Shown here piece by piece: positions 4,319-62,909 of a DNA stretch of 63,040 bases. The position numbers and the translations under genes were made by a program. The stretch comes from Paramagnetospirillum caucaseum (GTDB taxonomy: Bacteria > Pseudomonadota > Alphaproteobacteria > Rhodospirillales > Magnetospirillaceae), in NCBI RefSeq assembly GCF_000342045.1, contig NZ_AONQ01000024.1, forward strand, positions 1 through 63,040, in the 5' to 3' direction. The notes under the pieces are model-generated. The model searched no databases, was not told the origin of the DNA, and saw only the letters and a list, made by a program, of their open reading frames with translations. Numbering within the stretch: position 1 is the stretch's first letter; every line of letters begins with the position of its first letter.

Positions 4319-5224
4319 ATGAGTAAAGTCACGATCGCCGCATTGACGGCAAAGGACCTTGAGAAGGTTGTCGAGTGTGACCGTCTGATTAGCGGCCGTT
4401 CCCGGCGTGGTTTCTTCGAGAAACGGTTTGGCGCCCAGGAGTCGGCATCCGATGGGTTCATCCAGATCGGGGCGTGGACCCATGGAAAACTGGCCGGGTT
4501 CGCCTCCGCTCATATTCTTGAAGGTGAATTCGGGGGTGGAGAGATTGTCGCCGTCCTCGACGCCCTGGGCGTAGAATCCGATGCCAGACACCAGGGAATC
4601 GGCCTTAAGTTGCTTGAAGACATAGCTTCATTGGCCAAGGCGCACGGTGCCCGGCGAATAATCAGTCAGGCTCACTGGGAACAGCTTGGGCTGGTACGTC
4701 TGTTAGCCGCATCGAAGTTCTCCATCTCGCCTCAGGTGGTGCTGGAGCGCCCCCTTACATCGCTGGAGGCTCGGGAAGATGACGCGACCATCGTTGTCCG
4801 TAGTATGAACGAGGCCGATTTCAATGCCGTGACCGCCATCGACCGCAAGGCTATGGGGCTGGATCGATCAGCCTTCTACAAGCGCAAATTTGCCGAGGTT
4901 CTAGAGCAGTCCGGGGTTCGGGTGTCGATGGTGGCCGAGCAGGATGGAATCGCCGTTGGATTTGTTATGGCGAGGGTGGATTACGGCGAATTCGGTCAAA
5001 CCAGTCCGGCCGCTGTTCTTGACACCATTGGTGTCCGCCCTGGATTTGATGGCCATGGCGTTGGTGCCGCATTAATGGCCCAACTGTTCCAGAATTTGGT
5101 TTCGCTCCGTATCGAGCGTGTCCGAACCGTGGTTCCATGGAATGGGTACGGCCTTCTGTCGTTCCTGGAACGGAACGGCTTTCAGCCTACTGAGGCGCTC
5201 TCCTTCGCCCGAGAGCTCACCTAA
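4319..5224 (+). CDS. Tandem GNAT-family acetyltransferase
   Basis: The 301-residue product carries two GNAT domains (about 1-150 and 155-301). Each has an acetyl-CoA-binding motif A of the R/Q-x-x-G-x-G/A kind: RHQGIGLKLL in the first and FDGHGVGAAL in the second. The ATG at 4319 follows AGGAGG and lies ten bases after bcrD, so this is the last gene of the bcr operon. GNATs in aromatic clusters can acetylate the active-site lysine of acyl-CoA ligases and switch them off; a small-molecule substrate is equally possible. It converges with the Pat-like gene, leaving six bases between the two stops. Substrate unknown. Confidence 0.8.
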   Translation: MSKVTIAALTAKDLEKVVECDRLISGRSRRGFFEKRFGAQESASDGFIQIGAWTHGKLAGFASAHILEGEFGGGEIVAVLDALGVESDARHQGIGLKLLEDIASLAKAHGARRIISQAHWEQLGLVRLLAASKFSISPQVVLERPLTSLEAREDDATIVVRSMNEADFNAVTAIDRKAMGLDRSAFYKRKFAEVLEQSGVRVSMVAEQDGIAVGFVMARVDYGEFGQTSPAAVLDTIGVRPGFDGHGVGAALMAQLFQNLVSLRIERVRTVVPWNGYGLLSFLERNGFQPTEALSFARELT

Positions 5225-5230
5225 AGTCTA

Positions 5231-7822
5231 TCAGTCGCCGAGGACCAGGAGGCATTCCGTCACCTCCGGGTCCTCGCTTGACGTCAAAATGAAACCGCAC
5301 TTTCTCGCCAGCGCCAGCATGGCGGTGTTATCCGACAGAATTTGCGCGCCGATCTCGTGGGTTTTCCGGGTCTGGTGATGGCGGATGATCTTGGTCATCA
5401 AGGTGCTGCCCAGCCCAGTTCCCTTAAGGTCGGAGCGAACCAAAATCGCAAGCTCAGCCTTGCGGTTGTCTGGGTCGGCGACCGTCCGCACAACGCCCAA
5501 GGTTTCCCACCCCTGCCCGGGAACTGGCCGGCTGGCAATGAAGGCCATCTCCCGGTCATAGTCGATCTGGGTCAGCCGGGCGAGTTGGTGGTGGCCAAAT
5601 CTCTGCGGGGTACCGAAGAACCGGTAACGAAGATCTGTTTCATTCATCCGGTTCACGAGATCTGCATGGGCCTGTTCATCCTCGGGGCGAACAGGCCGAA
5701 GCACCACGGCCGAGCCATCACGGAGTGTCGCAGGTTCCTCCAGTTCGGCCGGGTAAGGCAGGATGGAGAAGCTACGGAGATCGGACTGATCCGGAGGGGC
5801 CGTCCGGATTCTCGCATCCACCGCCAGAACGCCGCGATCATCGGCGAACAGCGGATTGATGTCGCAGGCGATGATCTCTGGATTATCGGTCAGCATAGCC
5901 GACACCCTTACCAGGGCGTCGGCTATGGCGTCCAGATCGGCCGCCGGACGGCCGCCTTGGGCCTCCAGGCGCCACGAAACACGGGTCTGCGCGATCAGGC
6001 GCCGCGCCAGGGGGCGATTAAGCGGGGGCAAGGCCAGGGCGTGGTCGCGAATGACCTCCACCGCCCGCCCACCTTCGCCGAATACCAGCACCGGCCCAAA
6101 CAGAGGGTCGCAAGCGATGCCGATCATCAACTGGCGTGCATGGGGCCGCAGCGCCATTTTCTGCACTCCGAAGCCGTCGAAGCGCAGTTCCGGCGAGGTT
6201 GAGGCCACCCGGTGGAAGATGGCCTCGGCGGCGGTCCGAACCGCCTCAGCGTTCTCAAGGTTGAGCGCCACGCCGCCCACATCCCACTTGCGGGGCACAT
6301 CGGGCGAGGAATAGGTCAAGGCGACGGGAAAGCCCATGCGGGTGGCCGCCTGCGCCGCGTCCTCTGGTGTGGCGGCCAGGACGCTCTCCACCGTGGCGAC
6401 GCCGTAGAAGGACAGCAATTCACGGGTTTCCGGGTCGGTGAGGAATCCGTCGGCGCGATCGAGTGCCCGGTCGATGATCGCGCGGGCACTCCGTCTGGCG
6501 GAGTGCAGTTCCAAAATGTCGGACGGCGGCGTTTCCAGCAGCATTTCCTGATTGCGGTGAAAGTCCACTAGATGCCGGAATCCACGGATGGCGTCGCCGA
6601 TCGTCTCGTAATTGGGCAATCCCGCCTCGGCGAACAATGAGCGCGCGGTCATTGATGACTCGCCGCCGAGCCAGCAGGTCAGCAATGCACCTCCGACCCG
6701 CTGGTGAGCGGCCGCGACCGCCCTGGCGCAAGCGCCGCCGTTCGACAATGCGGTGGGGGCATGGATGACCAAGGTCGCGTCCAGGTTCGACGTTTCGACC
6801 AGTTCGGTCAGGGCCGTGCCATAACGATCGGGTTGGGCTGCCGTCTCCAGATTTATCAACCGGGCCGGCTCTCCAGCCCCGATCAGAGCCATTTCGTCCG
6901 CCGCCATCAGGGCGAGATCGGCGCCGTTGCACACGATACCCAGACGCTCGCCCTTCATATGGCGGTTGCGCGCCAAGGTCTCGACCGCCGCGAACAGCTC
7001 ATCCATGTGATCGACCCGCAGCGCGCCAGCTCGGCGGGCAACCGCGTCGAACACCTCGTCCGGCGCGGCGAGGGTCTCCGACAGGAACGCTCCGATCGGG
7101 CGGTTGTTGCCGGCTCGGTTGGCTTTGATCAGCAGCAGCGGCTTGTTGCGCGCCGCCGCACGCGCCGCTGGCACGAAATCCCGACGGTTGGGGATGTCCT
7201 CCACATAGAGCAGGATGGCCCTGGCTGCTTCGTCATTGGCCAAATAGTCAAGGATGTCGCCGAAATCCACGTCTTCGCCGCCGCCCAGACTGATGAAATG
7301 GGAAAAGCCGATGCCACGGGTGTTGGCCCAGTCGAGAATGGTGGAGAACATGGCCCCGGACTGGGACACGAAGGCGATCTGACCCGGCAGGACGGGGACG
7401 TGTCCCAGGCTGGCATTCAGCCGGGCGGATGGAACCATGAGGCCCAGGCTGTCGGGGCCCAGAACGCGTAGCCCGCATGACTTTGAGGCGGCCATGAAGG
7501 TGGTACGGTCGCCAGGAGCTTCCATCATGATTGCTGCTCGGCAGCCGCGTTGCCCAAGCTGCTCGATCAAGGCCGGGGCGTCGCTTCCCGCCGTGCAGAT
7601 CACAGCGAGGTCGGGAGCGACCGGCAGGGAGGCGATATTCGGATAGGCCAGTATCCCGGCCACCGCCCTCCGTCCCGCCGCCACCGGCATCACCGGGCCA
7701 CCGAAGCGCCCGTCCACAAGATTGTGCATCACCGTGGCACCGAGGGAGCCCGGCTGGTCGGAGGCGCCGATCACGGCGATGGTGCGGGGAGCGAGCAGAT
7801 GGGTCAGGTTGGTGATGGACAA
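5231..7822 (-). CDS. Pat-type protein acetyltransferase (pseudo ADP-forming acyl-CoA synthetase fused to GNAT)
   Basis: The 863-residue protein has a CoA-binding Rossmann domain (about 1-130), a succinyl-CoA-ligase-like domain (145-290), an ATP-grasp domain (about 450-690) and a C-terminal GNAT domain (about 700-863, motif near SDLKGTGLGSTLM). True ADP-forming synthetases carry a phosphorylated His in an SHTG-type motif; here the equivalent stretch after KPLLLIKANRAG reads AFLSETLAAP, with no His. That loss is typical of Pat/PatZ regulatory lysine acetyltransferases, which inactivate AMP-forming acyl-CoA ligases. R. palustris Pat acts on benzoate-CoA ligase. The start is TTG at 7822, with AAGGA about eight bases upstream. 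It is the last gene of the ten-gene catabolic operon, 29 bases after the thioesterase gene. Confidence 0.85.
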   Translation of the reverse strand: MSITNLTHLLAPRTIAVIGASDQPGSLGATVMHNLVDGRFGGPVMPVAAGRRAVAGILAYPNIASLPVAPDLAVICTAGSDAPALIEQLGQRGCRAAIMMEAPGDRTTFMAASKSCGLRVLGPDSLGLMVPSARLNASLGHVPVLPGQIAFVSQSGAMFSTILDWANTRGIGFSHFISLGGGEDVDFGDILDYLANDEAARAILLYVEDIPNRRDFVPAARAAARNKPLLLIKANRAGNNRPIGAFLSETLAAPDEVFDAVARRAGALRVDHMDELFAAVETLARNRHMKGERLGIVCNGADLALMAADEMALIGAGEPARLINLETAAQPDRYGTALTELVETSNLDATLVIHAPTALSNGGACARAVAAAHQRVGGALLTCWLGGESSMTARSLFAEAGLPNYETIGDAIRGFRHLVDFHRNQEMLLETPPSDILELHSARRSARAIIDRALDRADGFLTDPETRELLSFYGVATVESVLAATPEDAAQAATRMGFPVALTYSSPDVPRKWDVGGVALNLENAEAVRTAAEAIFHRVASTSPELRFDGFGVQKMALRPHARQLMIGIACDPLFGPVLVFGEGGRAVEVIRDHALALPPLNRPLARRLIAQTRVSWRLEAQGGRPAADLDAIADALVRVSAMLTDNPEIIACDINPLFADDRGVLAVDARIRTAPPDQSDLRSFSILPYPAELEEPATLRDGSAVVLRPVRPEDEQAHADLVNRMNETDLRYRFFGTPQRFGHHQLARLTQIDYDREMAFIASRPVPGQGWETLGVVRTVADPDNRKAELAILVRSDLKGTGLGSTLMTKIIRHHQTRKTHEIGAQILSDNTAMLALARKCGFILTSSEDPEVTECLLVLGD

Positions 7823-16239: not shown

Positions 16240-16255
16240 CGGCCTATGAAGCACG

Positions 16256-16903
16256 ATGGAACCGCGAGCCATGGATGTGACGACGAAAAAGCCGAACAAG
16301 AAAGAAGAGCAGCGAGCCGCCAGCCTGGAGAATATCCTTGCTTGTGCCTTGAACTTGTTCGTGAAGAATGGCTACCGCGCCACTACCATTGATCATATTG
16401 CGGCTAAGGCGAGGCTGACCAAGGGGGCTGTCTACTTCTACTTTAAGGCCAAGGACGCCATCATGCTTCGCCTCCTGGAGCAGGCTGAAGAGTACGTGGT
16501 AAGTCCTATCGCCAGCCATATCGCCGAGGCTGGGCCGGGGGCAGATGCTAAGCTTGTGAAATTCATTCACAGCCAGTCGATTCTCGGTCTGACGCGGCCT
16601 GAGCATGTGCTGTTGCTCATCTTGGTTTCCATCGAATTCAGCGGTGCCAGCAACGAGATAGAGGACAAGGTGAAGTCCATCTACCGTCGCATGTATACGG
16701 CTATCGAGGGGGTCATCGTCCAAGGTCAATCGGAAGGAGTCTTCCGCACGGATCTCTCTGCCCACGACCTTACCGCCATCGTCATGGCAGGCCATGATGG
16801 TGTGCTGGTTGAGTGGTACCGTCGGCCCAAGGAACTGACAGGCAAGAACCTCGCGAACACCCTTCGGGCAACCCTGTTGCACGGCATCATGAACAGAAGT
16901 TGA
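16256..16903 (+). CDS. TetR/AcrR-family transcriptional regulator
   Basis: The 215-residue protein has an N-terminal TetR helix-turn-helix (TIDHIAAKARLTKGAVYFYF, residues about 40-60) and an alpha-helical ligand-binding C-terminal domain. It is divergent from the ten-gene catabolic operon, which fits a repressor that senses an acyl-CoA intermediate and binds the shared operators at 907-940 and 16108-16134. The start at 16256 is the longest; ATG at 16271 is an alternative and neither has a strong ribosome site. Confidence 0.88.
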   Translation: MEPRAMDVTTKKPNKKEEQRAASLENILACALNLFVKNGYRATTIDHIAAKARLTKGAVYFYFKAKDAIMLRLLEQAEEYVVSPIASHIAEAGPGADAKLVKFIHSQSILGLTRPEHVLLLILVSIEFSGASNEIEDKVKSIYRRMYTAIEGVIVQGQSEGVFRTDLSAHDLTAIVMAGHDGVLVEWYRRPKELTGKNLANTLRATLLHGIMNRS

Positions 16904-17102
16904 GTGACCCGCTGGCAAGAAGGGATGGGACACGTTTGCCGGGAAATATCTATGGGATAGAGCGTGACGCTAGGCTGTTCGGTATTGGGCTGAAGAAAGT
17001 TGCACATCTCCTAGTGTGATGGGTACACGGGCAACTCGATCTTCAGGCACAGCATGGCGTTTGGCCCCATAAAACATGAGGCGAGCGGCCAATGTAAGCA
17101 TA

Positions 17103-17900
17103 ATGAAAGGGACTGTCTTGGGCCACCAGCGTCTCGGCACGCTTCCTCGCACAAAGAAGTGGCAGCGCGTCGTCGAGATGATCGGCGGCGGTGCTGATAT
17201 GCGGGACATTGCCGAGGCTACTTCCGCCGCTGCCGAGCGGGATATGATCGATGCCGGAAAGGATGAAGCGCTCCGGCACGCATTCTGGCTGTTGACCCAG
17301 ATCCCATTGGCCGCGCGCATGGGCGAGCATTTCATTCCGGAACTCCGAATGCTCGGGCTCAAGCTGAGTGATCGGCCATCCCTGGTAGAGATCGTCACCG
17401 CGCTTACCGATGCTGTTGATCGCCATGTCCGAACAGCGGGCGGGCGGACGGATCTGGGCGAGATGGCACAATTGTCGGCGGCGGAAAGTCTTAATGCCGT
17501 CGCCAGTCGTGAGCTCCCTGGGCTGTTCGGGACCTCTTTCGAGGATGTCCGAGGCGCGTTGGCTGGCTTGGGAACACCCGATCAGTTCAGCGTGCTGTCG
17601 CGGGATTTTTTCGCCCGCCTGACCCGACGGCACCTGGGTTACTACCTCAGTCGTGAACTGCCAAACCATGTCGGTGTCGGCAAGCGCTTCCAGACCGCGC
17701 GCGAGCATAAGGAATTCGAGGGAGCACTCGATACCCACACCCGTGAGACGGCCAGAATCGTCAAGAAATTCTCACGGGACTGGTTCTCGAAGAGCAATTA
17801 TGAGGGCGGCATCGACCAGGACAAGGCGGCCCGTTTCGGGCATGTCGCATTCGACAAGATACGCAGGGAACTGCGCAAACGGAGAGATGCTGATGGCTGA
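17103..17900 (+). CDS. Unrecognised protein, first gene of the QueC-like module
   Basis: The 265-residue product (ATG at 17103, MKGTVLGHQRLGTLPRTKKW) is mostly helical and highly charged. No enzyme motif is visible. The C-terminal part has repeated basic-aromatic patches (RDFFARLTRRHLGYYLS, KKFSRDWFSKSNYEGG) and ends RKRRDADG. ATG at 17076 would add nine residues; neither start has a convincing ribosome site. The last codons overlap the start of the QueC-like gene by eight bases, which implies coupled translation and a shared function. In Qat and type IV CBASS systems, QueC-like enzymes act beside a partner protein; whether this is such a partner is unknown. Confidence 0.75.
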   Translation: MKGTVLGHQRLGTLPRTKKWQRVVEMIGGGADMRDIAEATSAAAERDMIDAGKDEALRHAFWLLTQIPLAARMGEHFIPELRMLGLKLSDRPSLVEIVTALTDAVDRHVRTAGGRTDLGEMAQLSAAESLNAVASRELPGLFGTSFEDVRGALAGLGTPDQFSVLSRDFFARLTRRHLGYYLSRELPNHVGVGKRFQTAREHKEFEGALDTHTRETARIVKKFSRDWFSKSNYEGGIDQDKAARFGHVAFDKIRRELRKRRDADG

Positions 17901-19791
17901 GCGGCTGGTCATCTGCGGTGGCGTAACGGGTGTGCCGGGCGCCAGGAACGTTCTGGAAATGGACGTCAATGCGCCGGAGGGCACGCCGCAGAAAGTCAAT
18001 CTCCGGCTCGGAGATCTCTGCGCCCGCATGGTGCAGGATGTTCCGGCCGTGTTGGCGGACTTGCTGGAGGTGGCGTCCTATGTTTATTGCGCCGACCAGT
18101 TCACTCGGCGCGGCCGGGATGGAATGCGGAGTATGGGAGCGGAATGGCGACGCCAGTTCCGCTTCATCATTCCTGTGCGTCGCCCCGACCTCTGGAATCG
18201 TCGGGATGTGATCGAGGCATTATGCGAGACGTTGGGCTTTCTGTCTGAGGATGCCTACGCCCTTGAATTCGTCGAGCATGGTTCACCGGCCACGGGATTG
18301 CAGCCCTACCTTGATCTCGGCCATTCGGCGGATCGTGGGTTTGTTCCCGATGAGGTGATGCTGTTCTCCGGCGGCCTCGATTCCTTTGCCGGGGCGGTGG
18401 ATAGTCTGATTGGCAACGGTCGCAAGGTGGCGTTGGTTAGCCATCGGGGCTCGTCCATGGTGACATCGCGACAATCGGCGCTATTGATTGCCTTGCGTAA
18501 TCGGACTCGGGCCAGTCAGCTTTTTCACGTCTATGTCAGTGTCAATAAAGGTCAGGAAGAGGCCGTCGAGTTCACCCAGCGGACGCGGTCATTTTTGTTC
18601 GCGAGCCTGGGACTGGTGGTGGCGCATCTGTTCGGGCAACGCACGATCCGGTTTTACGAGAATGGTGTCGTCAGCATCAATCTACCACTGGCCGAACATG
18701 TGCTGGGCGCACGGGCCACTCGTACCACCCATCCCCATGTATTGGCCGATTTCACCTCGCTGTTCTCGCTGCTGTTGGGTGAGGCGGTCTTGGTCGAAAA
18801 TCCCTATCTGTGGTTGACCAAGAGCGACGTGGTCGGTGTCATCGCCAAACATGGCTGTGCCGATCTTATTGCCGAGACATTCAGTTGCACACGCGTGCGC
18901 GAGGCGACCAAGCGCAAGCGCCATTGCGGTGTCTGCTCTCAATGTCTCGATCGTCACTTCGGCATCCTGGGGGCGGGCCTCGGTGAATACGAATCGGCCG
19001 AAGCTTATTCCGTCGATCTGTTCAAGGGCGAGCGCAAGCCCGGTACGGACGTGGTGATGGCTGAATCCTATGTGCTGAACGCCATGAAATTGGCAGGCAT
19101 GTCCGAGCAAGGATTCTTCAGCACGTTCGGGCAGGCATTTCGGGTGCTACCATATCTGCCGGGGCCGCCAGACGAGGCGGCGGCGAAGATCTATGATCTG
19201 CTCCGACGTCACGGCCAGACGGTGGCCCGTGTCGTTGATTGGGAATTGGGCAACAACGCCAGTTTGACGCATACGCTGGGCCTGCCGGATACATCGCTGT
19301 TGATGTTGCTGAAATCCACGTCCATGCGATCGATGGAAACGGTGGACCCGGCTGAGGTCGAGCCGCCCGCCTCCGAGCAGGCCGCAGCTGATGTCTCCCG
19401 GCGATCCGCCAACGGACTGTTTTTCGCCGTGGATGAGGAAAAGGAGCGCATTCTTTTCCGTGGTGGTGTCGAACTCGCCGGAGCAGGATTCAAGCTCTTG
19501 CGGGCTCTGGTGGCTGATTTCGCCGCAGATGTGACGGCCGGTCTTCCGCACGAAGAGCATCGCCTGATTAAAAGCGATGCTCTTGCCGAGCGTTTGGGAA
19601 TCGAGGAACCGACGTTGCGCAAGCGAGTCGTGCGGACCCGTAACGCCATCGAGAAGCAGTTCCTGGACAAGCTGGATGTTCAGATTGCCGACGATGCCGT
19701 TATCCAGAACGTCAATTGGCGTGGCTATCGCCTCAATCCCTACCTGCTCCAGATCCAGCCTGGGCAACTCGGTGACATCGGGTCCGACTGA
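17893..19791 (+). CDS. QueC-like PP-loop enzyme with C-terminal winged-helix domain
   Basis: The 632-residue protein has four parts. Residues 1-150 form an N-terminal extension like that of QatC/Cap9-type proteins (VASYVYCADQF, FIIPVRRPDLW). Residues 155-360 are a QueC-like N-type ATP-pyrophosphatase with LFSGGLDS at 157-164 and a four-Cys zinc site (C332, C345, C348, C351 in HCGVCSQCLDR). Residues 360-490 are unassigned. Residues about 505-620 resemble an OmpR-type winged helix (SDALAERLGIEEPTLRKRVV, then VNWRGYRLNP). QueC makes 7-cyano-7-deazaguanine; relatives in defence systems use related chemistry on proteins or nucleic acids. GGAGAG lies six bases before the ATG. The DNA-binding fusion is unusual. 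Confidence 0.8.
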   Translation: MAERLVICGGVTGVPGARNVLEMDVNAPEGTPQKVNLRLGDLCARMVQDVPAVLADLLEVASYVYCADQFTRRGRDGMRSMGAEWRRQFRFIIPVRRPDLWNRRDVIEALCETLGFLSEDAYALEFVEHGSPATGLQPYLDLGHSADRGFVPDEVMLFSGGLDSFAGAVDSLIGNGRKVALVSHRGSSMVTSRQSALLIALRNRTRASQLFHVYVSVNKGQEEAVEFTQRTRSFLFASLGLVVAHLFGQRTIRFYENGVVSINLPLAEHVLGARATRTTHPHVLADFTSLFSLLLGEAVLVENPYLWLTKSDVVGVIAKHGCADLIAETFSCTRVREATKRKRHCGVCSQCLDRHFGILGAGLGEYESAEAYSVDLFKGERKPGTDVVMAESYVLNAMKLAGMSEQGFFSTFGQAFRVLPYLPGPPDEAAAKIYDLLRRHGQTVARVVDWELGNNASLTHTLGLPDTSLLMLLKSTSMRSMETVDPAEVEPPASEQAAADVSRRSANGLFFAVDEEKERILFRGGVELAGAGFKLLRALVADFAADVTAGLPHEEHRLIKSDALAERLGIEEPTLRKRVVRTRNAIEKQFLDKLDVQIADDAVIQNVNWRGYRLNPYLLQIQPGQLGDIGSD

Positions 19792-19892
19792 CCCGATGTC
19801 ACGACTTTCCGGCCCGATGTCACAGCTTTTCCCGCAAAGCCGCAGCAATTCTCGGGCGACAGGCTCGAATATGTCACAACTTTGTTTGTGAC
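19772..19892. repeat. Cluster of GATGTCAC-type repeats after the QueC-like gene
   Basis: A perfect 13-bp inverted repeat, GTGACATCGGGTC (19772-19784) and GACCCGATGTCAC (19790-19802), spans the stop codon. GATGTCAC followed by R-R-CTTT recurs at 19795 and 19816, with ATGTCACAACTTT at 19871. The last copy forms another dyad, GTCACAA/TTGTGAC (19873-19892). ATGTCACAG recurs at the start codon at 19994. There is no T-run, so this is not a typical terminator. Options are binding sites for the winged-helix domain of the gene just upstream, or transposase-binding end repeats of a lost TGTCA-ended element. The rest of 19893-19993 shows nothing clear. Confidence 0.6.
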
Positions 19893-19993
19893 CATCCATA
19901 TCTCTCTCGGCGCGAAACCCTGAAAATCACTGCGAATTCAATCTATTGCTCTCGTTCCGACGCGGTCGGGGGCGCAATTCGTAGTGAGGTGCC

Positions 19994-20257
19994 ATGTCAC
20001 AGATCAAGTCTGACCAGCCCAAGGTGGTGACCGGTGATATCCGGCCGTTGCCGTATTTGACCCAGGAGGACATCGCCACGCGGTGGGCGATCAGCCCACG
20101 CACGCTGGAGCGGTGGCGCTGGCTGGGGATCGGCCCGCGTTACCTCAAGATCCGTGGCCGGGTGCGCTATCGCCAGGAAGACATCGACGCCTATGAGGCG
20201 GAGCAGGTGCGCGAAAGCACCTCGGCCACCGCTCCGGCGGCGGGAGGTGTCAAATGA
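19994..20257 (+). CDS. Helix-turn-helix (AlpA/MerR-like excisionase) protein
   Basis: The 87-residue protein carries a winged-HTH of the excisionase/AlpA type: LTQEDIATRWAISPRTLERW followed by the wing PRYLKIRGRVRYRQEDIDAY. Such proteins act as excisionases or early activators. It opens the phage early block and overlaps the next gene by four bases. ATG at 19994 follows TGAGG. Confidence 0.8.
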   Translation: MSQIKSDQPKVVTGDIRPLPYLTQEDIATRWAISPRTLERWRWLGIGPRYLKIRGRVRYRQEDIDAYEAEQVRESTSATAPAAGGVK

Positions 20258-27155: not shown

Positions 27156-28892
27156 ATGCAGCTTGCTCATTCCGAGCCGGTCCCACCGGCCATCGGCGCG
27201 ATGTCGTGCGCCTTGGCCGCCGAAGGGCTGGTCTATGGCAGCGTATGCAGCGGGATCGAGGCCGCGACGGTGGCTTGGGAGCCGTTGGGTTGGCGGCCCG
27301 CTTTCTTCGCCGAGATCGAACCGTTCCCATCCGCCGTGCTGGCCCACCATTACCCCCATGTTCCCAACCTGGGCGACATGACCGCTATCGACGGTCGGGC
27401 ATGGCGAGGCGAGATCGATGTGCTGGTGGGCGGCACGCCCTGCCAAGCGTTCTCGGTGGCGGGCCTGCGCAAGTCGTTGGACGATTCCCGCGGCAACCTT
27501 GCCCTCAAATTCGTGGAACTCGCCGATGCCATCGATCCAGCTTGGGTTGTTTGGGAAAACGTCCCCGGAGTCCTGTCCACCCGCGACAACGCCTTCGGAT
27601 GTCTTCTGGGCGGACTGGCCGGAGAAGATGGTCCGGTCGTCCCGCCAGGGGGAAAATGGTCGGACGCTGGTGTTGTCGTTGGACCCGCGCGCACAGTCGC
27701 GTGGCGGGTGCTCGACGCCCAATATTTCGGCCTGGCCCAACGCCGCCGCCGTGTGTTCGTTGTCGCAGGTGCTGGAGACCGGGCCGATCCCGTCCAAGTA
27801 CTTCTTGAGCGCGAAGGCGTGCGCCGGGATCATCCGCCGCGCCGAGAAGCGGAACAAGGTGTTGCCCCCACGCTTGATGCTCGCGCTGGCCGAAGCGGCG
27901 AAACGTCATTCGCCACCAGCGGCGGACTGATTGCCGAGGCGTTCGGCGGCAACAACACCTCCGGCCCCATTGATGTCGCCACCGCGCTCAATGCCTGCGC
28001 CTCGGCCAGTGGCCGGATGGATTTCGAGAGCGAGACCTTCGTCGCCACCACCTTGCGGGCACGCGACCTGTCCCGTGGCGTGGACAGCGACTGCACCGAT
28101 ACGCTGATCGCCCACACCCTGCGGGCCAAGTCGAACCTCGCCCATCGGCCCGATATCGACACCCTGGTCACCCATTCCCTACGCGGTGAGGGCTTCGACG
28201 CCTCGGAAGACGGCACCGGACGCGGCACTCCGTTGGTGCCGGTGGCTATCCCGATCCAGGAGGCCGGTGCCCGCACCGGCATCAGCACCACGGACGTGCG
28301 TGCCGGAATCGGTGTCGGCAGTGATGGCGATCCGATGTTCACGTTGCAGGCGGGCAAGCAACACGCCGTGGCGTTCAATCTGCGCGGCCGCGATGGTGGG
28401 GCGCAGGCCGAGATTGATGCCGACAACCTCGCCAGCCTGCGGGCGGCCAGCGGCGGCTCCAGCCGCAGCTATGTCGCCTTCGCCCAGAATCAGCGGGACG
28501 AGGTCCGCCCCCTGACAATTGCGGGCGCTCTGGCCGCTGAGCCGGGGACCAAGCAGCAGACCTATGTGGCGTTCGACTGCAAGGCAGGCACCGGGTTCCA
28601 GACGATCAATGCCGACGGCGTCACCCCGACGCTCCGAGCGATGAATGCCCTAGGCCGCGACAATGGCGGCGGCCAATTGGCGGTCCAGCACGACATGGCT
28701 GTGCGGCGCCTGACGCCACGCGAATGCGAGCGCCTCCAGGGTTTCTCCGACGATTACACCCAGATCCTGTGGCGCAAGAAGGCCGCCGAGGATTGTCCCG
28801 ACGGGCCGCGTTATCGGGCACTGGGCAACTCCATGGCCGTGCCGGTGATGCGCTGGATCGGGCGCCGCATCCAGGCCGCCGGGAGGCGATGA
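27156..28892 (+). CDS. DNA (cytosine-5-)-methyltransferase
   Basis: The 578-residue protein has the C5-methyltransferase motifs in order: I (YGSVCSGIEAATVAW), IV (GGTPCQAFSVAGL with the catalytic Cys), VI (WENVPG), VIII (QRRRRVF), then after a long central target-recognition region (about 230-510), IX (LTPRECERLQGF) and X (RALGNSMAVPVMRWIG). It probably protects phage DNA from restriction. The central region is long and internally repetitive, with several T-L-R/T-L-D steps. The start lies directly after the GGTTACCA array, hinting at autoregulation. It overlaps the next gene by four bases. Confidence 0.92.
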   Translation: MQLAHSEPVPPAIGAMSCALAAEGLVYGSVCSGIEAATVAWEPLGWRPAFFAEIEPFPSAVLAHHYPHVPNLGDMTAIDGRAWRGEIDVLVGGTPCQAFSVAGLRKSLDDSRGNLALKFVELADAIDPAWVVWENVPGVLSTRDNAFGCLLGGLAGEDGPVVPPGGKWSDAGVVVGPARTVAWRVLDAQYFGLAQRRRRVFVVAGAGDRADPVQVLLEREGVRRDHPPRREAEQGVAPTLDARAGRSGETSFATSGGLIAEAFGGNNTSGPIDVATALNACASASGRMDFESETFVATTLRARDLSRGVDSDCTDTLIAHTLRAKSNLAHRPDIDTLVTHSLRGEGFDASEDGTGRGTPLVPVAIPIQEAGARTGISTTDVRAGIGVGSDGDPMFTLQAGKQHAVAFNLRGRDGGAQAEIDADNLASLRAASGGSSRSYVAFAQNQRDEVRPLTIAGALAAEPGTKQQTYVAFDCKAGTGFQTINADGVTPTLRAMNALGRDNGGGQLAVQHDMAVRRLTPRECERLQGFSDDYTQILWRKKAAEDCPDGPRYRALGNSMAVPVMRWIGRRIQAAGRR

Positions 28893-29758
28893 TGCCCCGC
28901 AATCCCTATCGCATGGACGGCCCCGCCCTGGTGTCGTTCTCGGGCGGGCGCACGTCCGGCTACATGCTGCACCAGATCCTGGACGCCCATAACGGCCAGC
29001 TACCCTCCGACGTCCATGTGGTGTTCTTCAATACCGGGCGGGAGTTCGAGCAGACCCTGCGCTTCGTCCACGAATGCTCGGTGCGCTGGCAGGTCGCCAT
29101 CACTTGGCTGGAATACGATCCGGCCGAGCCGTTCGACACCAGCGTGGTGGGCTACAACAGCGCGTCGCGCGATGGCGAGCCCTTCGAGAAGATCATCAAG
29201 GTGCGGGGCTTCCTGCCCAACCCGACCATGCGGCTCTGCACCCATTACCTCAAGGTCAAGCGCGGCATCGCGTTCATGCGCGACATGCTGGGCTACGGGG
29301 AATGGGTCAACGTCGTCGGCCTGCGCCATGACGAACCCCGCCGGGTCGCCCGCCAGAAGGCCATGAATGAAGCTGGCAAGGAACGCTTCGAGACCGTCCT
29401 GCCGCTGGATCAGGCCCGCGTCAGCCGCCAGGACGTCTCGGCCTTCTGGAAGCGCCAGCCCTTCGATCTTGGCCTGCCCGACAACAATGGCAAGACCCCA
29501 CTGGGCAATTGCGACCTCTGCTTCATGAAGGGCGCGGCGACCATCAAGGGGATCATGCGCCTGTTCCCCGAACGGGCCAGATGGTGGATCGACATGGAGC
29601 GCAACGCCCCGGCCCTTGGCACCCTGACCAAGCCGGAGATGGCCCTGTTCCGCGCCGACCGGCCCAGCTACCGCGAATTGCTCAATTTCGTCCGCCGCCA
29701 GCGGGATTTCGAGGGCGGCCCGTCCGATGACTGCCTGCCCTGCGATTGCACGGACTGA
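28889..29758 (+). CDS. PAPS-reductase-like PP-loop protein
   Basis: The 289-residue protein has the PP-loop SFSGGRTSGYML near residue 18 and the adenylyl-transfer PP-ATPase fold of the PAPS reductase/DndC superfamily. Cysteines at RLCTHYLK, GNCDLCFMKG and in the tail CLPCDCTD could hold a metal or Fe-S centre. Such genes are common in phages, where they are linked to DNA or RNA base modification; here the gene sits between two DNA methyltransferase genes. A DndC-type sulphur role is not supported because no other dnd genes are present. Confidence 0.75.
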   Translation: MMPRNPYRMDGPALVSFSGGRTSGYMLHQILDAHNGQLPSDVHVVFFNTGREFEQTLRFVHECSVRWQVAITWLEYDPAEPFDTSVVGYNSASRDGEPFEKIIKVRGFLPNPTMRLCTHYLKVKRGIAFMRDMLGYGEWVNVVGLRHDEPRRVARQKAMNEAGKERFETVLPLDQARVSRQDVSAFWKRQPFDLGLPDNNGKTPLGNCDLCFMKGAATIKGIMRLFPERARWWIDMERNAPALGTLTKPEMALFRADRPSYRELLNFVRRQRDFEGGPSDDCLPCDCTD

Positions 29759-29760
29759 TC

Positions 29761-31029
29761 ATGACTCATCCGCTTCCCGACACGGTCGAGCCTTGGCCCA
29801 TCGACCGGCTGATCCCCTATGGCCGCAATGCGCGGACCCATTCGGATGCCCAAGTCGCCCAGATCGCCGCCAGCATGGTCGAGTTCGGCTGGACCAATCC
29901 GGTGCTAGCCGACAGCAAGGGCAATGTCATCGCCGGGCATGGCCGTCTGGCCGCCGCCAAGTCCCTGGGGCTGGACGCGGTGCCGGTGGTGATCCTTGAC
30001 CATCTGAGCGAGGCCCAGCGCCGCGCCTACATCCTGGCCGACAACAAGCTGGCGCTGAATGCTGGCTGGGACGACGAAACCCTGGCGGCGGAGCTGCACG
30101 CGCTCAACGCCGAGGGCTACGACCTCGATCTGATCGGCTTCTCGGAAGAGGAGTTGGATGCCCTGATGGCCCCCCTCGACGACGAGGGTGACGGCCAGGG
30201 CGATGGAGACGAAGACGAGATCCCGGAACCGCCCGCCGATCCGGTGACGCGGCCCGGTGATCTGTGGATCCTGGGCCGACACCGCCTTCTGTGCGGCGAC
30301 AGCACTGTCGCCACCGACGTGGAGGGCCTGCTGGCCGGGGCCACGCCGCACCTGATGGTCACAGATCCGCCTTACGGGGTGGAATACGATCCCACCTGGC
30401 GCAACGAAGCCGGGGTGTCGTCCTCGGCCCGCACCGGCAAGGTCGCCAACGACGACCGCGCCGACTGGCGGGAAGCCTGGGCGCTGTTCCCCGGCGAGGT
30501 GGCCTATGTCTGGCACGCGGCGATATTCGCCAAGATTGTGGCGGACAGCCTGGAAGCCAACGACTTCAAGATCCGCGCCCAGATCATCTGGTCCAAGAGC
30601 CGCTTCGTCCTGGGACGCGGCGATTACCACTGGCAGCATGAGCCCTGCATTTATGCTGTGCGCAAGAACGGCACCGGCCATTGGCAAGGCGCTCGGGATC
30701 AGGCCACCGTTTGGGCCATCGGCAACAACGGCGATGAGGACGAGGCCACGGTTCACGGCACCCAAAAGCCGGTGGAATGCATGCGTCGCCCGATTCTCAA
30801 CAACAGCGCCGAGGGTGAGGCGGTCTATGAGCCGTTCGCGGGCAGCGGCACCACGGTGGTCGCCGCCGAGACCACCGGGCGGATTTGCTTCGCCATGGAG
30901 CTGAACCCGGCCTATGCCGACGTGATCGTCGGTCGCTGGCAGAAGCTGACCGGGGGCAAGGCCATCCTGGATGGCGATGGCCGCTGCTTCGAGGAAATCG
31001 CCGCCGGGAAGGCGGTCAGCGCCGGGTGA
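29761..31029 (+). CDS. ParB-like domain fused to DNA adenine methyltransferase
   Basis: The 422-residue protein begins with a ParB/sulfiredoxin-type domain (LIPYGRNARTHSDAQVAQI, then VIAGHGRLAAAKSLG, about 10-110). An acidic linker follows, then a beta-class amino-methyltransferase with motif IV DPPYGVEYD and a later motif I FAGSGTTVVAAE. DPPY favours N6-adenine methylation. These fusions are frequent in alphaproteobacterial phages and probably block host restriction or regulate phage DNA. The start is ATG at 29761, two bases after the previous stop. Confidence 0.9.
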   Translation: MTHPLPDTVEPWPIDRLIPYGRNARTHSDAQVAQIAASMVEFGWTNPVLADSKGNVIAGHGRLAAAKSLGLDAVPVVILDHLSEAQRRAYILADNKLALNAGWDDETLAAELHALNAEGYDLDLIGFSEEELDALMAPLDDEGDGQGDGDEDEIPEPPADPVTRPGDLWILGRHRLLCGDSTVATDVEGLLAGATPHLMVTDPPYGVEYDPTWRNEAGVSSSARTGKVANDDRADWREAWALFPGEVAYVWHAAIFAKIVADSLEANDFKIRAQIIWSKSRFVLGRGDYHWQHEPCIYAVRKNGTGHWQGARDQATVWAIGNNGDEDEATVHGTQKPVECMRRPILNNSAEGEAVYEPFAGSGTTVVAAETTGRICFAMELNPAYADVIVGRWQKLTGGKAILDGDGRCFEEIAAGKAVSAG

Positions 31030-56478: not shown

Positions 56479-56916
56479 ATGACCAAGGACGCTGTCGTGC
56501 CGCGTGGCATTCGCCTCAACAACCCCGGCAACATCAAGGAATCCCCCGGCGACAAGACCCAGTGGCAGGGCGAGCGCGCCACCGATGACGATCCGGTGTT
56601 CGAGGAATTCGTCAGTCCTGAAGCGGGCATTCGGGCGCTGGCCCGCATTCTGCTCGGCTATCAACGCCGCTATGGCCTCAACACCGTGACGGGGATCATC
56701 ACCCGCTGGGCGCCGGGCTGCGAGAACGACACCGGCTCCTATATCGCCCATGTCGCCTCCCGCCTCGGTGTCACGCCCGATCAGGCTATCGACCTGACCA
56801 AGGCCGACACCATGGTGGGGTTGGTTGAAGCCATCATCCGCCATGAAAACGGCCAGCAGCCCTATGCCCGTGAGGTGATCATGGTCGGAATCGCTATGGG
56901 GCTGGGGAGCGCCTGA
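56479..56916 (+). CDS. Candidate endolysin (NPGNI-type structural/lytic protein)
   Basis: The 145-residue protein starts MTKDAVVPRGIRLNNPGNIK. The RGIRLNNPGNI motif is typical of a family of phage virion or lysozyme-like proteins (P5-like). It also has RALARILLGYQRRYG and ITRWAPGCENDTGSYIAHVA, which fits a lysozyme-like fold. It sits next to the holin, supporting a lytic role. Strong GGAGG precedes the ATG. The catalytic residue is not proven. Confidence 0.72.
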   Translation: MTKDAVVPRGIRLNNPGNIKESPGDKTQWQGERATDDDPVFEEFVSPEAGIRALARILLGYQRRYGLNTVTGIITRWAPGCENDTGSYIAHVASRLGVTPDQAIDLTKADTMVGLVEAIIRHENGQQPYAREVIMVGIAMGLGSA

Positions 56917-56918
56917 CC

Positions 56919-57518
56919 ATGAACCTGCTCGATCTCCTCGGCGATGCCGCCGCCATCGCCGCCAATCCCATCGCGGGGCTGGCCAAGGTGGCGCTGGACG
57001 TGGCGCCGGACATCGCCAGCCTGTTCGGCGACGATGCCGAGAAGGCCGTCGGCAAACTGGCCGACACCGTCCGCACCATCACCGGCACCGATGATCCCGA
57101 CAAGGCCCGCGAGGCGCTGGCCGATCCCAATCTGGTGTTTCAGCTTCGCTCCCAGGCGCAAGGATTCGCCCATGCCGAACGCATGCAGCAGATGGCCGGG
57201 GCCATCACCACGCTGACCGCGACCCTGGCCGACCGTCAGAACGCCCGTGCCAGGGACAGCGAGTTCACCAAAGCAGGCAGGAGCAACACTCGCGCCAACG
57301 TCCTGCTGGTGACCGCTGGACTCGGCATTGTCGGGGGTATCGGCTTCATGGTGTTCGGCCATGTCGACGGCAACACCGCCGTCGGTGGCTGCATCATCTC
57401 GGTGGTGACCCTGCTGGCCGGCAAGTTCGCCACCGCCTTCGACTTCGAATTCGGCGGATCGGCGGATTCGGAGCAGACCCGCACCTTGCTGGCGCAGGCG
57501 CCACCCATTGGCAAGTAG
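56919..57518 (+). CDS. 3TM-type holin family protein
   Basis: The 199-residue protein has an N-terminal amphipathic stretch (LLGDAAAIAANPIAGLAKVA) and two clear C-terminal membrane segments (about 127-147, ANVLLVTAGLGIVGGIGFMV, and 155-172, GGCIISVVTLLAGKFATAF), typical of the Holin_3TM family. It would permeabilise the inner membrane for the endolysin encoded just upstream. It is the last gene of the late block. Confidence 0.82.
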   Translation: MNLLDLLGDAAAIAANPIAGLAKVALDVAPDIASLFGDDAEKAVGKLADTVRTITGTDDPDKAREALADPNLVFQLRSQAQGFAHAERMQQMAGAITTLTATLADRQNARARDSEFTKAGRSNTRANVLLVTAGLGIVGGIGFMVFGHVDGNTAVGGCIISVVTLLAGKFATAFDFEFGGSADSEQTRTLLAQAPPIGK

Positions 57519-57543
57519 CACAATCCACTTTTTGCACGACATG

Positions 57544-57580
57544 GCCGACCGGGGGAGCAATCCCCCGGTCGGCTCTTTTT
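57544..57580 (+). terminator. Strong rho-independent terminator after the lysis genes
   Basis: GCCGACCGGGGGA (57544-57556), a GCAA loop and TCCCCCGGTCGGC (57561-57573) form a perfect 13-bp stem, followed by TCTTTTT. It marks the end of the phage late transcript. From 57581 to 57724 nothing coding is seen. Confidence 0.92.
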
Positions 57581-57724
57581 GTGTTTCTAGCCTGCGTATG
57601 TGGCAGACTGCTGATGGGCTCTGAACGGGGTCGCCGCCATTCCCACCGCCACCATTGATCCATCCCCCGCGATGGCGTCTCCGGTGGTCCCCGCGCTTTC
57701 GGGTCCGGGTCCCCGTCGAGGCCC

Positions 57725-58627
57725 TTATCGCCCCATGGTTCTGGCGTCGCTGCCGACCGCATCGAGAATGCCGCGCATCTCAACCGCCATTTCAGCATGG
57801 TGGCGGTCGATATAGTCGGCCACCGCCTCATTGCGGAACAGCTTGGCTACATACCCCTTGGTCACCACCAGACTGAGCATGATGTCGCCCAGGCTGTCCT
57901 CGACCGAGCGATAGTCGCGCCGCAGGCGCTCCATCTCGTGTTCCATGCGGGCGATATCGGTCGCCGACATGCCCTCCACCTTCTTGGGTCTTGCCGGATC
58001 GATCAGGTGCTCAGGCCGGGTCGCGGCCAGCAGAACCTTGGCATAGGAGAGGGTGAAGCGGTTGGCCGAGATCATCATTTCCACTGCATCGATCTGGCGC
58101 AGCGGCTTCATCCGTCGCAGGATCGGAAAGATCGCCGGAACCACCATGCGATCCTTCAGCATGTCGACCACCTCGGGAGCGATGCCGACCAGCATGTACT
58201 GCCGCTCTTGAATCCGCTTCACATCCACCGCCAGTCCTTCGGCGATGGCCTTGGCCGACACTCCCTTCTCGATGGCCTGCAACAGCATCCGGTGTTCCTG
58301 GATCGCCGTCATCCGGGCGATCCGTCGGTTATAGGTGAAACCCTCGTCATCGGTGGAAACCAGGCATCGTGCTTCGGTTGCTCCGATCTCCCGCAGGGCC
58401 GCCAGGCGGAGATGGCCGTCCAGCAGGATGTAGGGGCCGGATCGCTCCTTCGCCTTCTCGGGGTGGACAGCCAAGGGTTCGACCAACCCCACTTGGCGGA
58501 TGGAAGCCAGGATGGTGCGGAATTTCGGGGTCTTGAGAACTTCCTTTCCCACCACCTTGGTCGGCAGGATGCGCTCCAGCGGCAGTGTGATGGTTTTCGC
58601 CTCGAAGCCGAGCCGGATACCGGTCAT
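57725..58627 (-). CDS. ParB/RepB-like protein 2 (RepB C-terminal type)
   Basis: The 300-residue protein has an N-terminal ParB-like fold (ITLPLERILPTKVVGKEV; YILLDGHLRLAALREIGA, where canonical ParB has GERR) and a helix-turn-helix region (EKGVSAKAIAEGLAVDVKRI). The C-terminal helical part (MEHEMERLRRDYRSVEDSLG) resembles the RepB C-terminal domain. No parA is nearby, so a standard partition role is unlikely. It overlaps the first ParB-like gene by four bases in a three-gene operon led by a serine recombinase. Confidence 0.8.
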   Translation of the reverse strand: MTGIRLGFEAKTITLPLERILPTKVVGKEVLKTPKFRTILASIRQVGLVEPLAVHPEKAKERSGPYILLDGHLRLAALREIGATEARCLVSTDDEGFTYNRRIARMTAIQEHRMLLQAIEKGVSAKAIAEGLAVDVKRIQERQYMLVGIAPEVVDMLKDRMVVPAIFPILRRMKPLRQIDAVEMMISANRFTLSYAKVLLAATRPEHLIDPARPKKVEGMSATDIARMEHEMERLRRDYRSVEDSLGDIMLSLVVTKGYVAKLFRNEAVADYIDRHHAEMAVEMRGILDAVGSDARTMGR

Positions 58628-59514
58628 GGCGTCTCTCCCTTCAGGCGATCCGCCAGCGGCTTGGGCAGATCGAGCAGCCCCTCCGCCCGCAACAGGGTGC
58701 GGAAATGCTCGTCGGCAAACAGGCGGCGCAGCGCCGAGGTCAGCAGGATCAGCCGTTGCTCGCCGATGTCGGCCTTGCGGATCAGCATCTGCTGGCGGTG
58801 AACCTCTTCCTGGTAGACCTGGGCAAGCCGCCGAGGTGAAGGAGGCTGGTCCTTGCCCGGAAATTTGTGGCCATAGGCCTTCCCAATCAGCTTGCGGCGC
58901 TCGATCAGGCGCCGCACCTTGAGCAATTGCGGTCCTTTCAGGGTTCCATCCTGGTAGGCGTCCATCAGGCTGTGCTGCATGGCGGAATCGTCGCTGTGAG
59001 CGATCTGGCTGGCCAGATAGATGGGCATCCAGCCCCGTTCCACCGCGGCGATCAGCCGCTCCTCGCCTTCGCGCAGAAGGATCAGGATTTCCGAGATATA
59101 GGACGGATCGAGACCGGTCTTGGCGCCGATCTCGGGGGAACTGTAGCCGCGATCCTCCAGGATGCGGATGGCGGTCAGCAGGTCCCGGTTGGTATGCTTG
59201 CGCCGCGCCATGTTCTCGATCAGGCCGCGCAGATAGGCGTCGGCCTCGGTGGTATTCTCGATCAGGGCGGGAATGGTCTTCTCCCCCAGCGCCATGACTG
59301 CTTCCAGACGCCCCTGGCCGCACACCAGGTCGTATCTTGGCCCATCCTGATCTCGGCCGCATTCCCTGACCGTGATAGGTCGCTTGAGGCCGACCGAGGC
59401 GATGCTGTCGATCATGGCGGCGAACATCTCGCGATTCCGGCTGCGGGGATTGGCGATGCGGATACGCTCCACCGGGATCAGGTGGATGGCTTCGTCGCCT
59501 TTCCCGCCGTCCAT
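58624..59514 (-). CDS. ParB-like protein 1
   Basis: The 296-residue protein has a ParB N-terminal domain (IHLIPVERIRIANPRSRN; LVCGQGRLEAVMALGE) with GQGR where canonical CTP-binding ParB has GERR. An HTH follows (SSPEIGAKTGLDPSYISEIL). The middle and C-terminal region is Arg/Lys-rich. It overlaps both neighbours (recombinase stop TGATG and the next ATGA), which implies co-translation. Confidence 0.8.
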   Translation of the reverse strand: MDGGKGDEAIHLIPVERIRIANPRSRNREMFAAMIDSIASVGLKRPITVRECGRDQDGPRYDLVCGQGRLEAVMALGEKTIPALIENTTEADAYLRGLIENMARRKHTNRDLLTAIRILEDRGYSSPEIGAKTGLDPSYISEILILLREGEERLIAAVERGWMPIYLASQIAHSDDSAMQHSLMDAYQDGTLKGPQLLKVRRLIERRKLIGKAYGHKFPGKDQPPSPRRLAQVYQEEVHRQQMLIRKADIGEQRLILLTSALRRLFADEHFRTLLRAEGLLDLPKPLADRLKGETP

Positions 59515-61124
59515 CACGCCACCTCGCGCAAGGGGACGCGGCGGGCGAGATCGAACAGGCGTTCCAGTGCGGTGAAGCGGTAGGCGTCGAGGCCGATGCC
59601 GTTGTCCTCGGCCAGACGCAGCCGCGCCACCGTCATGTCGATGGCAGGCAATAGGTAATAGTCCAGGATGTCGCGGTTGCCGGGCGCCATCCGCACCGCC
59701 ACCGTGATGTCGGGCAGTAGGCCGGTCTCCAGCCGGATGGTCCAACGATGCGCCCCAGCCTTGGTGGACTCGCAGCGGGAAATGACCAACGAAACGGTGA
59801 ATTCGTCATTGATCACCACCATGCCGCTTTCCAACTCGCGCCGCACCGAGCCGCCCAGGTCTCGGATACGGCGTAGCGTGTCCTCCACCACGGTGGGGAA
59901 CATCCGGCGCAGGTGGCGGTTGTCCTCGATATAGGCGTAATCGCGGCCGGGGTCATAGCCGACCAGGGCATAGGCCCGCAGCAGACTGCCGAAGCGGTGG
60001 CGGATCGCCCCGCTGGAGGGACCGGCAGCCGCCTCGTCGATGACGATGGCGGACAGGGCTCCGTGCCGGGCATGGAGTGCCTTGAGATGGTCCAGGATCT
60101 CCTCATCGGAAAACCACCGTGACCGCTCGACGATGATCGTCTGGGCCGCCCGGTAGTCCTGGATATCGACGATGGGAGTGAAGACGCCTTCGGCCCGGAT
60201 CCACTCTTCTGGCGGGTTTCTAACCCGCTGAGCCTTCAGCTTGAAGGAGCGGCGGTTGAAGACATTGTTGCCGATATACTTCTCATTGGTCAGAACCTGA
60301 TGCACGACTGATGCCCGCCAGGGGCGCCCGAGGTCGGTCATAATCCCGTCTGCGTTTAACAGGGCGGCGATCTCACCCTCGCGGCGGCCTTCGGTCACGA
60401 ACAGACGGTAGATGCGCCGCACGGTTTCGATCTCGGTCTCGGGGCCGGGTTTGAGGATCACCCGGTCGGTCTGCAGGCATTTGTGCTGTCCTCTTTCCAG
60501 AACGCCAAGCTCGGCTCCGGTCTGGTCGATCCGCATCCGGCGCAGGCCATAGCCCGCCGGGCCGCCCTGGCGATAGCCCATCCGGATCAGACGACACTGC
60601 CCGGCGAACACCTTGACCGACAGGTCGCGGCTGTAGTCCCCCGCCTGACTTCGCCTCATCATCTTAAGCAGGGAGGATTGCATGCTGCCGTCATTGACGA
60701 ACTGCTCGGCGCAGTACTCAACCCGAATGCCGGCCTTCTTGCACAGGTATTCGTAGTAGGCGCTCTCGTCGGTGTCCTGGAAGCGACCGAAGCGGCTGAC
60801 GTCGTAGACCAGCAGCATCTCGAAATCGGCGCGACCCTGGGTCGCATCGGCGATCAGCCTTTGCAGCGCCTCGCGCCTATCCAGTTGCAGCCCGCTTATT
60901 CCTTCGTCGGCGTAGGTGCGGACAATCTCCAGTCCGTGGCGTTCGGCGTAATGGGCGATGGCATCGGCCTGGTTCTCGGTGGAATACTGCTGATGCTCGG
61001 TGGACATGCGCAGATACTGGGCCGCTCGCAAGGGGCCATCCCGGCTACCGGATTTGCCGCCATTATTGCTTCTTCTTGCCGCCACAGATGCCCCCTGGCT
61101 TTTATTGGCCCCGCCTGTGGCCAT
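59514..61124 (-). CDS. Large serine recombinase with unusual C-terminal domain
   Basis: The 536-residue protein has a serine resolvase catalytic domain (RAAQYLRMSTEHQQYS with the nucleophile Ser; LLVYDVSRFGRFQDTDESAY) and a recombinase domain (GYRQGGPAGYGLRRMRID, GRPWRASVVHQVLTNEKYIG). No CxxC zinc ribbon follows, unlike typical large serine integrases. Instead there is a roughly 230-residue region (FSDEEILDHLKALHARHGAL; MVVINDEFTVSLVISRCEST) of unknown fold. It could integrate or excise its own island or invert DNA. It leads an operon with two ParB-like genes. Confidence 0.85.
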   Translation of the reverse strand: MATGGANKSQGASVAARRSNNGGKSGSRDGPLRAAQYLRMSTEHQQYSTENQADAIAHYAERHGLEIVRTYADEGISGLQLDRREALQRLIADATQGRADFEMLLVYDVSRFGRFQDTDESAYYEYLCKKAGIRVEYCAEQFVNDGSMQSSLLKMMRRSQAGDYSRDLSVKVFAGQCRLIRMGYRQGGPAGYGLRRMRIDQTGAELGVLERGQHKCLQTDRVILKPGPETEIETVRRIYRLFVTEGRREGEIAALLNADGIMTDLGRPWRASVVHQVLTNEKYIGNNVFNRRSFKLKAQRVRNPPEEWIRAEGVFTPIVDIQDYRAAQTIIVERSRWFSDEEILDHLKALHARHGALSAIVIDEAAAGPSSGAIRHRFGSLLRAYALVGYDPGRDYAYIEDNRHLRRMFPTVVEDTLRRIRDLGGSVRRELESGMVVINDEFTVSLVISRCESTKAGAHRWTIRLETGLLPDITVAVRMAPGNRDILDYYLLPAIDMTVARLRLAEDNGIGLDAYRFTALERLFDLARRVPLREVA

Positions 61125-61158
61125 GCTTTCCGCTTCATTCTATGGATGGAGCGAATTC

Positions 61159-61431
61159 ATGTCCCGGTCGATAAAGGGAACTAAAGTTCCCTTCGCGGCA
61201 CTTGACAGTGCCGAATCTCCTGATCTCGCCGCCGCTATCGCGGATGCATTGCGCACTGAACTGGGCAGTCGCTCCGTTGCCAAGACGGTGGCGCGCTGGA
61301 CCGGCGTCAGTGACCGGGCCGTCAAGAAATGGCTGACTGGAAAGGTTGTTCCGAATGGCGAGCATCTCGTGGTTTTGATGCGGCATTCTGATTTAGTTTG
61401 GGCTGTGGTACGAAAAGCGGCTGGCAGGTGA
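61159..61431 (+). CDS. Small helix-turn-helix regulator
   Basis: The 90-residue protein has an Xre-like HTH in its middle (RSVAKTVARWTGVSDRAVKK, then WLTGKVVPNGEHLVVLMRHS). It is divergent from the serine recombinase, only 34 bases apart, and probably controls that promoter. GGAG is seven bases before the ATG at 61159. It converges with the integrase gene. Confidence 0.75.
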   Translation: MSRSIKGTKVPFAALDSAESPDLAAAIADALRTELGSRSVAKTVARWTGVSDRAVKKWLTGKVVPNGEHLVVLMRHSDLVWAVVRKAAGR

Positions 61432-61450: not shown

Positions 61451-61469
61451 GATACGTGGCTATGGACTG

Positions 61470-62660: not shown

Positions 62661-62684
62661 CGGCTTCACCCTGCGATTAGATCT

Positions 62685-62863: not shown

Positions 62864-62909
<46 letters not shown>

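Follow-up and report, generated by a model that had tools for sequence, protein, structure and literature searches.

A QatB–QatC-like gene pair with a fused winged helix as a probable regulator of early genes in a prophage of Paramagnetospirillum caucaseum

The closest described relatives of the gene pair considered here are QatB and QatC of the antiphage system qatABCD (PDB 9y01 and 9y02; PMC13279940). QatB possesses a glycine at position 2 within an MGTS motif, and changing this glycine abolishes defence; in the available parts of that report the QatC reaction is not reconstituted and the effector step of QatBC is left open. According to the accessible text of PMC13329287, qatA lies near only 34 % of the QatC cluster, which leaves room for systems of other kinds. 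The pair examined here is found in contig NZ_AONQ01000024.1 of P. caucaseum (assembly GCF_000342045.1), of which positions 1 to 63,040 were analysed and are referred to as the window. Two overlapping genes on the + strand, within 17103..19791, encode a small QatB-like protein and a large QatC-like enzyme fused to a winged helix. We propose that this pair is probably a regulator of the early operon of a temperate phage, built from a QatB–QatC core; the proposal is supported by comparison, through the predicted folds, the pairing of the genes, their position, the way in which the pair and other modules exclude each other, and repeats that are linked to the winged-helix version. The initial annotation had recognized the two genes at this place and the relation to QatC, both of which were borne out, whereas the start that it gave for the small gene was not. 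No published description of such a QatBC–winged-helix prophage module was found in the literature searched, which mostly excluded subscription papers and preprints.

The QatC-like enzyme and its QatB-like partner

The large protein matched QatC in PADLOC (3e-56) and in PDB (1e-34), whilst its score against the NCBIfam QatC model, 207.7 bits, was below the equivalog cut-off of 280. Residues 4–475 corresponded to QatC in a model-based comparison, with a fold that included the N- and C-terminal extensions. Alignments of 20 and 29 sequences revealed the QatC active-site signature (SGGxDS, RxR, ExG, T.THP, P(x)4TK and four Cys), in which the first Thr was replaced by Ser in some proteins and the Pro of P(x)4TK was nearly invariant; in the alignment of 20 proteins (A3) all positions of the PP-loop SGGLDS except position 4 were invariant. 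The QatC-like extension, the PP-loop, the four-Cys zinc site and the winged helix named in the initial annotation were borne out. The C-terminal winged helix is of the OmpR/PhoB regulator type; no Pfam match to an N-terminal receiver domain was obtained for the large protein, in which the QatC enzyme stands in that place.

The large protein also matched the QueC domain, and its intact PP-loop and zinc site would suit an enzyme that makes a base or modifies nucleic acid. We consider such a role very improbable: the alignment to QatC placed TRTTHP, with the threonines of QatC type (PMC13279940, in the part available), where QueC has its Tyr/Asp substrate-recognition residues; a true QueC is encoded elsewhere in the genome, on contig C8; and expressed QatC did not substitute for QueC, as stated in the accessible part of PMC13329287.

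Among relatives of the large protein, the C-terminal part has been exchanged. Among 112 unique tails, 65 grouped with the winged-helix type of the window, 41 formed a second class with a C-terminal domain of ~200 aa, four were of Trans_reg_C type, two of which were tested and gave Pfam matches at 1e-9 and 3.6e-8, one was a DpnII-MboI nuclease replacing the winged helix (L012:8780-10642, on a Leptospira noguchii plasmid, 1.2e-9) and one fell outside these types. Four tails of the second class were tested, and no Pfam match over the cut-off was obtained beyond QueC. Examples of the second class are found in L091, L097, L100, L028 and L030, and no YGTCACA motif was seen in the flanks that were read; in L091–L093 the DNA upstream of the pair resembles, by eye, the end of a gene for a LexA/MarR-like protein.

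For the small protein, no noteworthy match was found in Pfam (up to E 1), PADLOC, NCBIfam or PHROGs, in keeping with the initial statement that it has no recognized domain. It is nevertheless not an orphan: its predicted model matches QatB, which would place a partner of QatB fold directly upstream of the QatC-like gene, and profile–profile comparison gave a weak link between the small family and QatB. A Foldseek search with the model gave nothing at or below E 0.001, and QatB was absent from the 50 matches listed. Both genes are under strong purifying selection relative to the 97 %-identical relative L011 (dN/dS 0.02 and 0.084).

Homologues of the small protein start with MGHxRLGxLP; L011 has GAG at the codon matching 17103 but retains the TTG at 17118, directly preceded by an AAAGGG-type sequence. 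The start of the small gene is therefore placed at TTG 17118 and not at 17103, as had been assumed at first. The N-terminus was then counted in 66 non-redundant small-gene pieces from the loci of the large-family scan, six of which were left out (five cut by the contig start and one second piece of a broken gene). All of the 60 remaining proteins had Gly2, followed by His in 58, Thr in one and Asn in one. The codon before the glycine was ATG, GTG or TTG in all 59 genes that have it in the contig; in L052, also among the 60, the contig is cut right before the glycine codon. This count is less biased than the alignments A4 and A6, which took in only proteins matching the start motif, and the small-family scan, which searched for the motif itself, so that an invariant N-terminus is in those cases partly a matter of choice. 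By analogy with QatB and CD-NTase, Gly2 is likely to act as the acceptor of a modification, as the initial annotation had supposed for this N-terminus.

Compared with qatABCD, the pair has in common the full-length QatC fold with both extensions, the PP-loop, TRTTHP and the zinc site, and a QatB-like helical partner, encoded immediately before the enzyme, that has an N-terminal glycine and in most cases Pro further on (PMC13279940, in the part available). It differs in having MGH instead of MGTS, with His as the usual residue 3; in the absence of the long disordered tail of QatB (30–90 aa), the first helix of the model beginning at residue 13; in the winged helix borne by its QatC; and in its place before prophage early genes with a repeat array. 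The type IV cyclic oligonucleotide-based antiphage signalling system (CBASS), with Cap9 and a CD-NTase, likewise combines a QueC-family enzyme and a partner with N-terminal glycine, but the partner model here matches QatB and the enzyme is of the long QatC type.

The two genes form a conserved module, as first suggested. When viral contigs were scanned with the large family, 79 loci were obtained (redundant), and the small gene was upstream in 65 of the 66 loci with at least 900 nt upstream (redundant); the exception, L113, has an adjoining QatD gene. The scan with the small family yielded 80 loci, of which 71 were new, and the large gene was present in all 71. These two locus sets and the ATPase-fetched set described below come from partly overlapping contigs. 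A relation to Qat without qatA or qatD also held for the pair loci searched: tblastn of flanks of 1.5–8 kb detected QatA (five query proteins) in L006 and L007 alone; QatD (four query proteins) was confined to these two and L113, and all three lack the pair. The large protein had matches in 10 of 99 whole genomes, its own included, some of them being Qat proper, and in genome sets from the class (385) and the phylum (398) the small family was found in five and three genomes, respectively, its own included in both. Annotated phage records gave no match to the small protein and two weak QatC-type matches in Listeria phages.

Repeats between the pair and the early genes

The stretch of ~230 bp from the large gene to the following HTH_17 gene contains 5 of the 11 TGTCAC copies of the window. 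Gaps of this kind were analysed in pair loci with an adjoining HTH_17 gene. YGTCACA occurred before HTH_17 with a mean of 2.27 per 250 bp in 60 pair loci (background 0.09), and twice or more in 82 % of them, compared with 0.00 in 20 loci of the 395 class and 0.07, with no locus having two, in 14 loci of the CI class (both classes are described below). In 46 non-redundant gaps the typical site positions were -76, -54 and 0, and the last site was exactly 25 bp before YATAW in 27 of the 46 (three or fewer in 200 shuffles). Exact 7-mer repeats at 53–55 bp were present in 34 of 45 gaps and in 6.4 % of 900 control windows. The motif varied in some phages (TGTCAGA in L070, TTGTCAG in L098, TGTCACG in L102 and L104, TGTAACGC in L106) with spacings near 21/53/74 kept; no repeat of such spacing was found in the gap of L025. 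Relative to the window, the gap after the large gene of L011 (from 9903) has one extra repeat of ~21 bp. No motif was present in the flanks of 13 pairs that lack the winged helix and are located elsewhere in their phages (one downstream flank is cut off). The -10-like element CATATC of the window was not reported by a sigma-70 consensus scan.

OmpR-type regulators bind 11-nt direct repeats, and the core of the Escherichia coli PHO box is CTGTCAT (PMC4415409, in the part available). The sites described here have in common with these the TGTCA core, the direct repeats and spacings (22, 54 and 76) near multiples of 11, and at sequence level they fit OmpR-type sites.

The repeats lie directly before HTH_17 and the early genes, and iterons have a spacing of ~22 bp, akin to that of the repeats here. 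Another phage protein, either HTH_17 or a replication protein using the repeats as iterons, might accordingly be the binder, with the pair as unrelated cargo. The distribution of the motif makes this improbable. HTH_17 proteins at least 70 % alike were compared across classes (112 comparisons), and the motif was present in 24 of 24 pair loci and in none of 16 others; proteins up to 91 % alike occurred with and without the motif, split strictly by module, and HTH_17 was rejected as the binder on this ground. The last site is, moreover, often 25 bp from a -10-like box, and two other module classes, used as controls, carry repeats of their own at about 11, 22 and 33 bp. Autoregulation by the winged helix, which the initial annotation had suggested, was considered, with the motif acting ahead of the small gene, and rejected, the repeats preceding the early genes and not the pair. 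A TTTTT run was found in 26 of 45 gaps, and the pair may therefore be a transcription unit of its own in many phages; no terminator was reported in the gap of the window.

Place of the pair among prophage modules

The pair had been described as lying beside a prophage, in the setting of a defence island. It is indeed in mobile DNA, but inside the prophage, of which it forms the first module, immediately before the presumed early genes. On its 3' side are the HTH_17 gene, further early genes and genes for terminase, head protease, tape measure and tail fibre; the term ‘early operon’ rests on the gene content of the window and its relatives, judged by eye and by profile search. The HTH_17 gene was next after the pair in 56 of 78 pair loci, some of which are too short to show it, the gene calls behind such neighbour counts being heuristic.

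Other modules at the same place were collected from loci fetched by the downstream ATPase gene, which we take to be Sak4. Because the query was taken from L042, a phage with the pair, and only the 80 best of 594 relatives were used, the set leans towards pair phages. In 36 of the 38 loci with at least 4.5 kb upstream, one recognizable module was present: the phrog_37634 type in 20 (395+312 aa, or a single protein of 724–747 aa), a 229-aa-type protein, with or without a CI-like repressor, in eight, the pair in six and a 451+316 module in two. One of the remaining two loci had a sigma-like gene only and the other no nameable module. None of 105 pair loci (redundant) held another module of that place. 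The pair has the features by which we, in a definition of our own, recognize a temperate-phage control module: it stands before the early operon, is unshared and has repeats peculiar to its class.

A close comparison is offered by L197, a relative of the phage in the window (DNA identity 92 % across 3,990 bp downstream), in which a CI-like gene and a 229-aa-type gene occupy the place of the pair and no blastn similarity to the pair and gap was found. Peptidase_S24 was matched in none of 24 pair contigs (of at least 25 kb) compared with 4 of 12 relatives, and HTH_3 was above the cut-off in 3 of 24 compared with 9 of 12; as these contigs are fragments, such absences are suggestive only. The 24 comprised 17 contigs with the winged helix, which include all three HTH_3 cases, and seven with the second tail class. 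The genome of P. caucaseum has seven S24 matches, none of them in the contig of the window. The 229-aa-type and 312-aa-type proteins have a common C-terminal domain; profile comparison of the winged helix of the pair with the 229-aa-type protein was not significant. Examples of phrog_37634-type proteins at this place are found at L143:6744-8832 and L152:5417-7588.

Antiphage defence, in which a minimal prophage-borne QatBC would protect the lysogen and the winged helix would tune expression or target phage DNA, stays a candidate because QatBC alone protects against some phages (PMC13279940, in the part available). In L171 a divergent SoFic-type defence gene (4368-5543) adjoins the pair, genes of its cluster adjoin the pair in seven pair loci, and the one relative that carries a DpnII-MboI nuclease where the winged helix would otherwise be points the same way. 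We nevertheless regard defence as unlikely to be the role of the pair, which was never found in the examined loci together with another module of that place, CI-like included, which has its repeats before the early genes and not before itself, and in whose contigs CI-type repressors are mostly absent. The class-specific operator-like array makes regulation of the early genes the better supported of the two.

For early-operon regulation we infer the following course. The fused winged helix would bind the YGTCACAA direct repeats in the gap, the last of which would cover position -35 of the presumed early promoter. The small protein would dock on the QatC portion in the manner of known QatBC and offer its N-terminal glycine (MGH...) to the ATP-using site; an enzymatic event or a state of the complex would then decide whether the winged helix switches the early operon. 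The pair would in this way replace the CI-type repressor module in these phages. Activation is somewhat favoured over repression. The location of a site over the -35 element resembles the activation described for gp6 of the temperate phage GIL01 (PMC6182141, in the part available), a precedent for a phage activator acting in that position, although gp6 belongs to the LexA type and has no relation to QatC. Pair phages lacking a CI-type repressor would be consistent with a default-off switch, but a repressor at a -35 site would look the same.

A more far-reaching version is tentative, and we hold it to be possible rather than probable: a QueC-family protein-conjugating enzyme would operate the lysis–lysogeny switch, its catalysis on the partner's Gly setting the winged helix with no CI repressor, and QatBC would be a general signalling core whose C-terminal output could vary, from a transcription factor to a DpnII-type nuclease or some other domain. 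If so, this would be a new kind of phage switch, and a protein-modification core known from antiviral defence would also serve viruses. The QatBC core here has a readable output in its DNA-binding domain and what seem to be the sites for it; with a reporter on the early promoter the ‘on’ state of the core would become visible, making the trigger, substrate and product of the enzyme directly testable.

Features of the locus and the surrounding prophage

The features of the locus are given in Table 1. The HTH_17 protein is, by reading, excisionase-like.

Table 1. Positions in the window of the two genes, their motifs and the operator-like sites
Feature	Position	Strand	Basis
Ribosome-binding-like AAAGGGA, 5 nt before TTG 17118	17106..17112	+	sequence
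Small gene, QatB-like protein of 260 aa, TTG start, N-terminus MGHQRLGTLPRTKKW	17118..17900	+	
Large gene, QatC-like enzyme fused to winged helix, 632 aa	17893..19791	+	PADLOC, PDB, model
Match to complete QatC including N- and C-terminal extensions	17896..19311	+	
PP-loop SGGLDS	18367..18384	+	translation, alignment
TRTTHP, QatC-type substrate-site threonines	18718..18735	+	alignments
Zinc site C...CGxCxxC	18886..18945	+	translation, alignment
OmpR/PhoB-type winged helix	19414..19743	+	
Operator-like site TGTCAC, within 3' end of large gene	19772..19777	-	
Operator-like site 1, TGTCACGA	19797..19804	+	
Operator-like site 2, TGTCACAG, 21 bp after site 1	19818..19825	+	
Operator-like site 3, TGTCACAA, 54 bp after site 2	19872..19879	+	
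-10-like element CATATC, 25 bp from start of site 3	19897..19902	+	
HTH_17 protein gene, first of presumed early operon	19994..20257	+	Pfam HTH_17 7.5e-9
Fifth TGTCAC, overlapping HTH_17 gene start	19995		

No exact direct repeats of at least 12 nt were found between 16250-17118 and 56900-63040 as candidate prophage ends. The far end of the prophage carries a ParB-like gene, a serine recombinase gene and a tyrosine integrase gene; the two last adjoin at the right end (59514-62669), beside what appears by eye to be the 3' part of a tRNA. Inside the prophage, at 28724-31029, a PAPS-reductase-like gene is followed by a ParB–DNA methyltransferase fusion.
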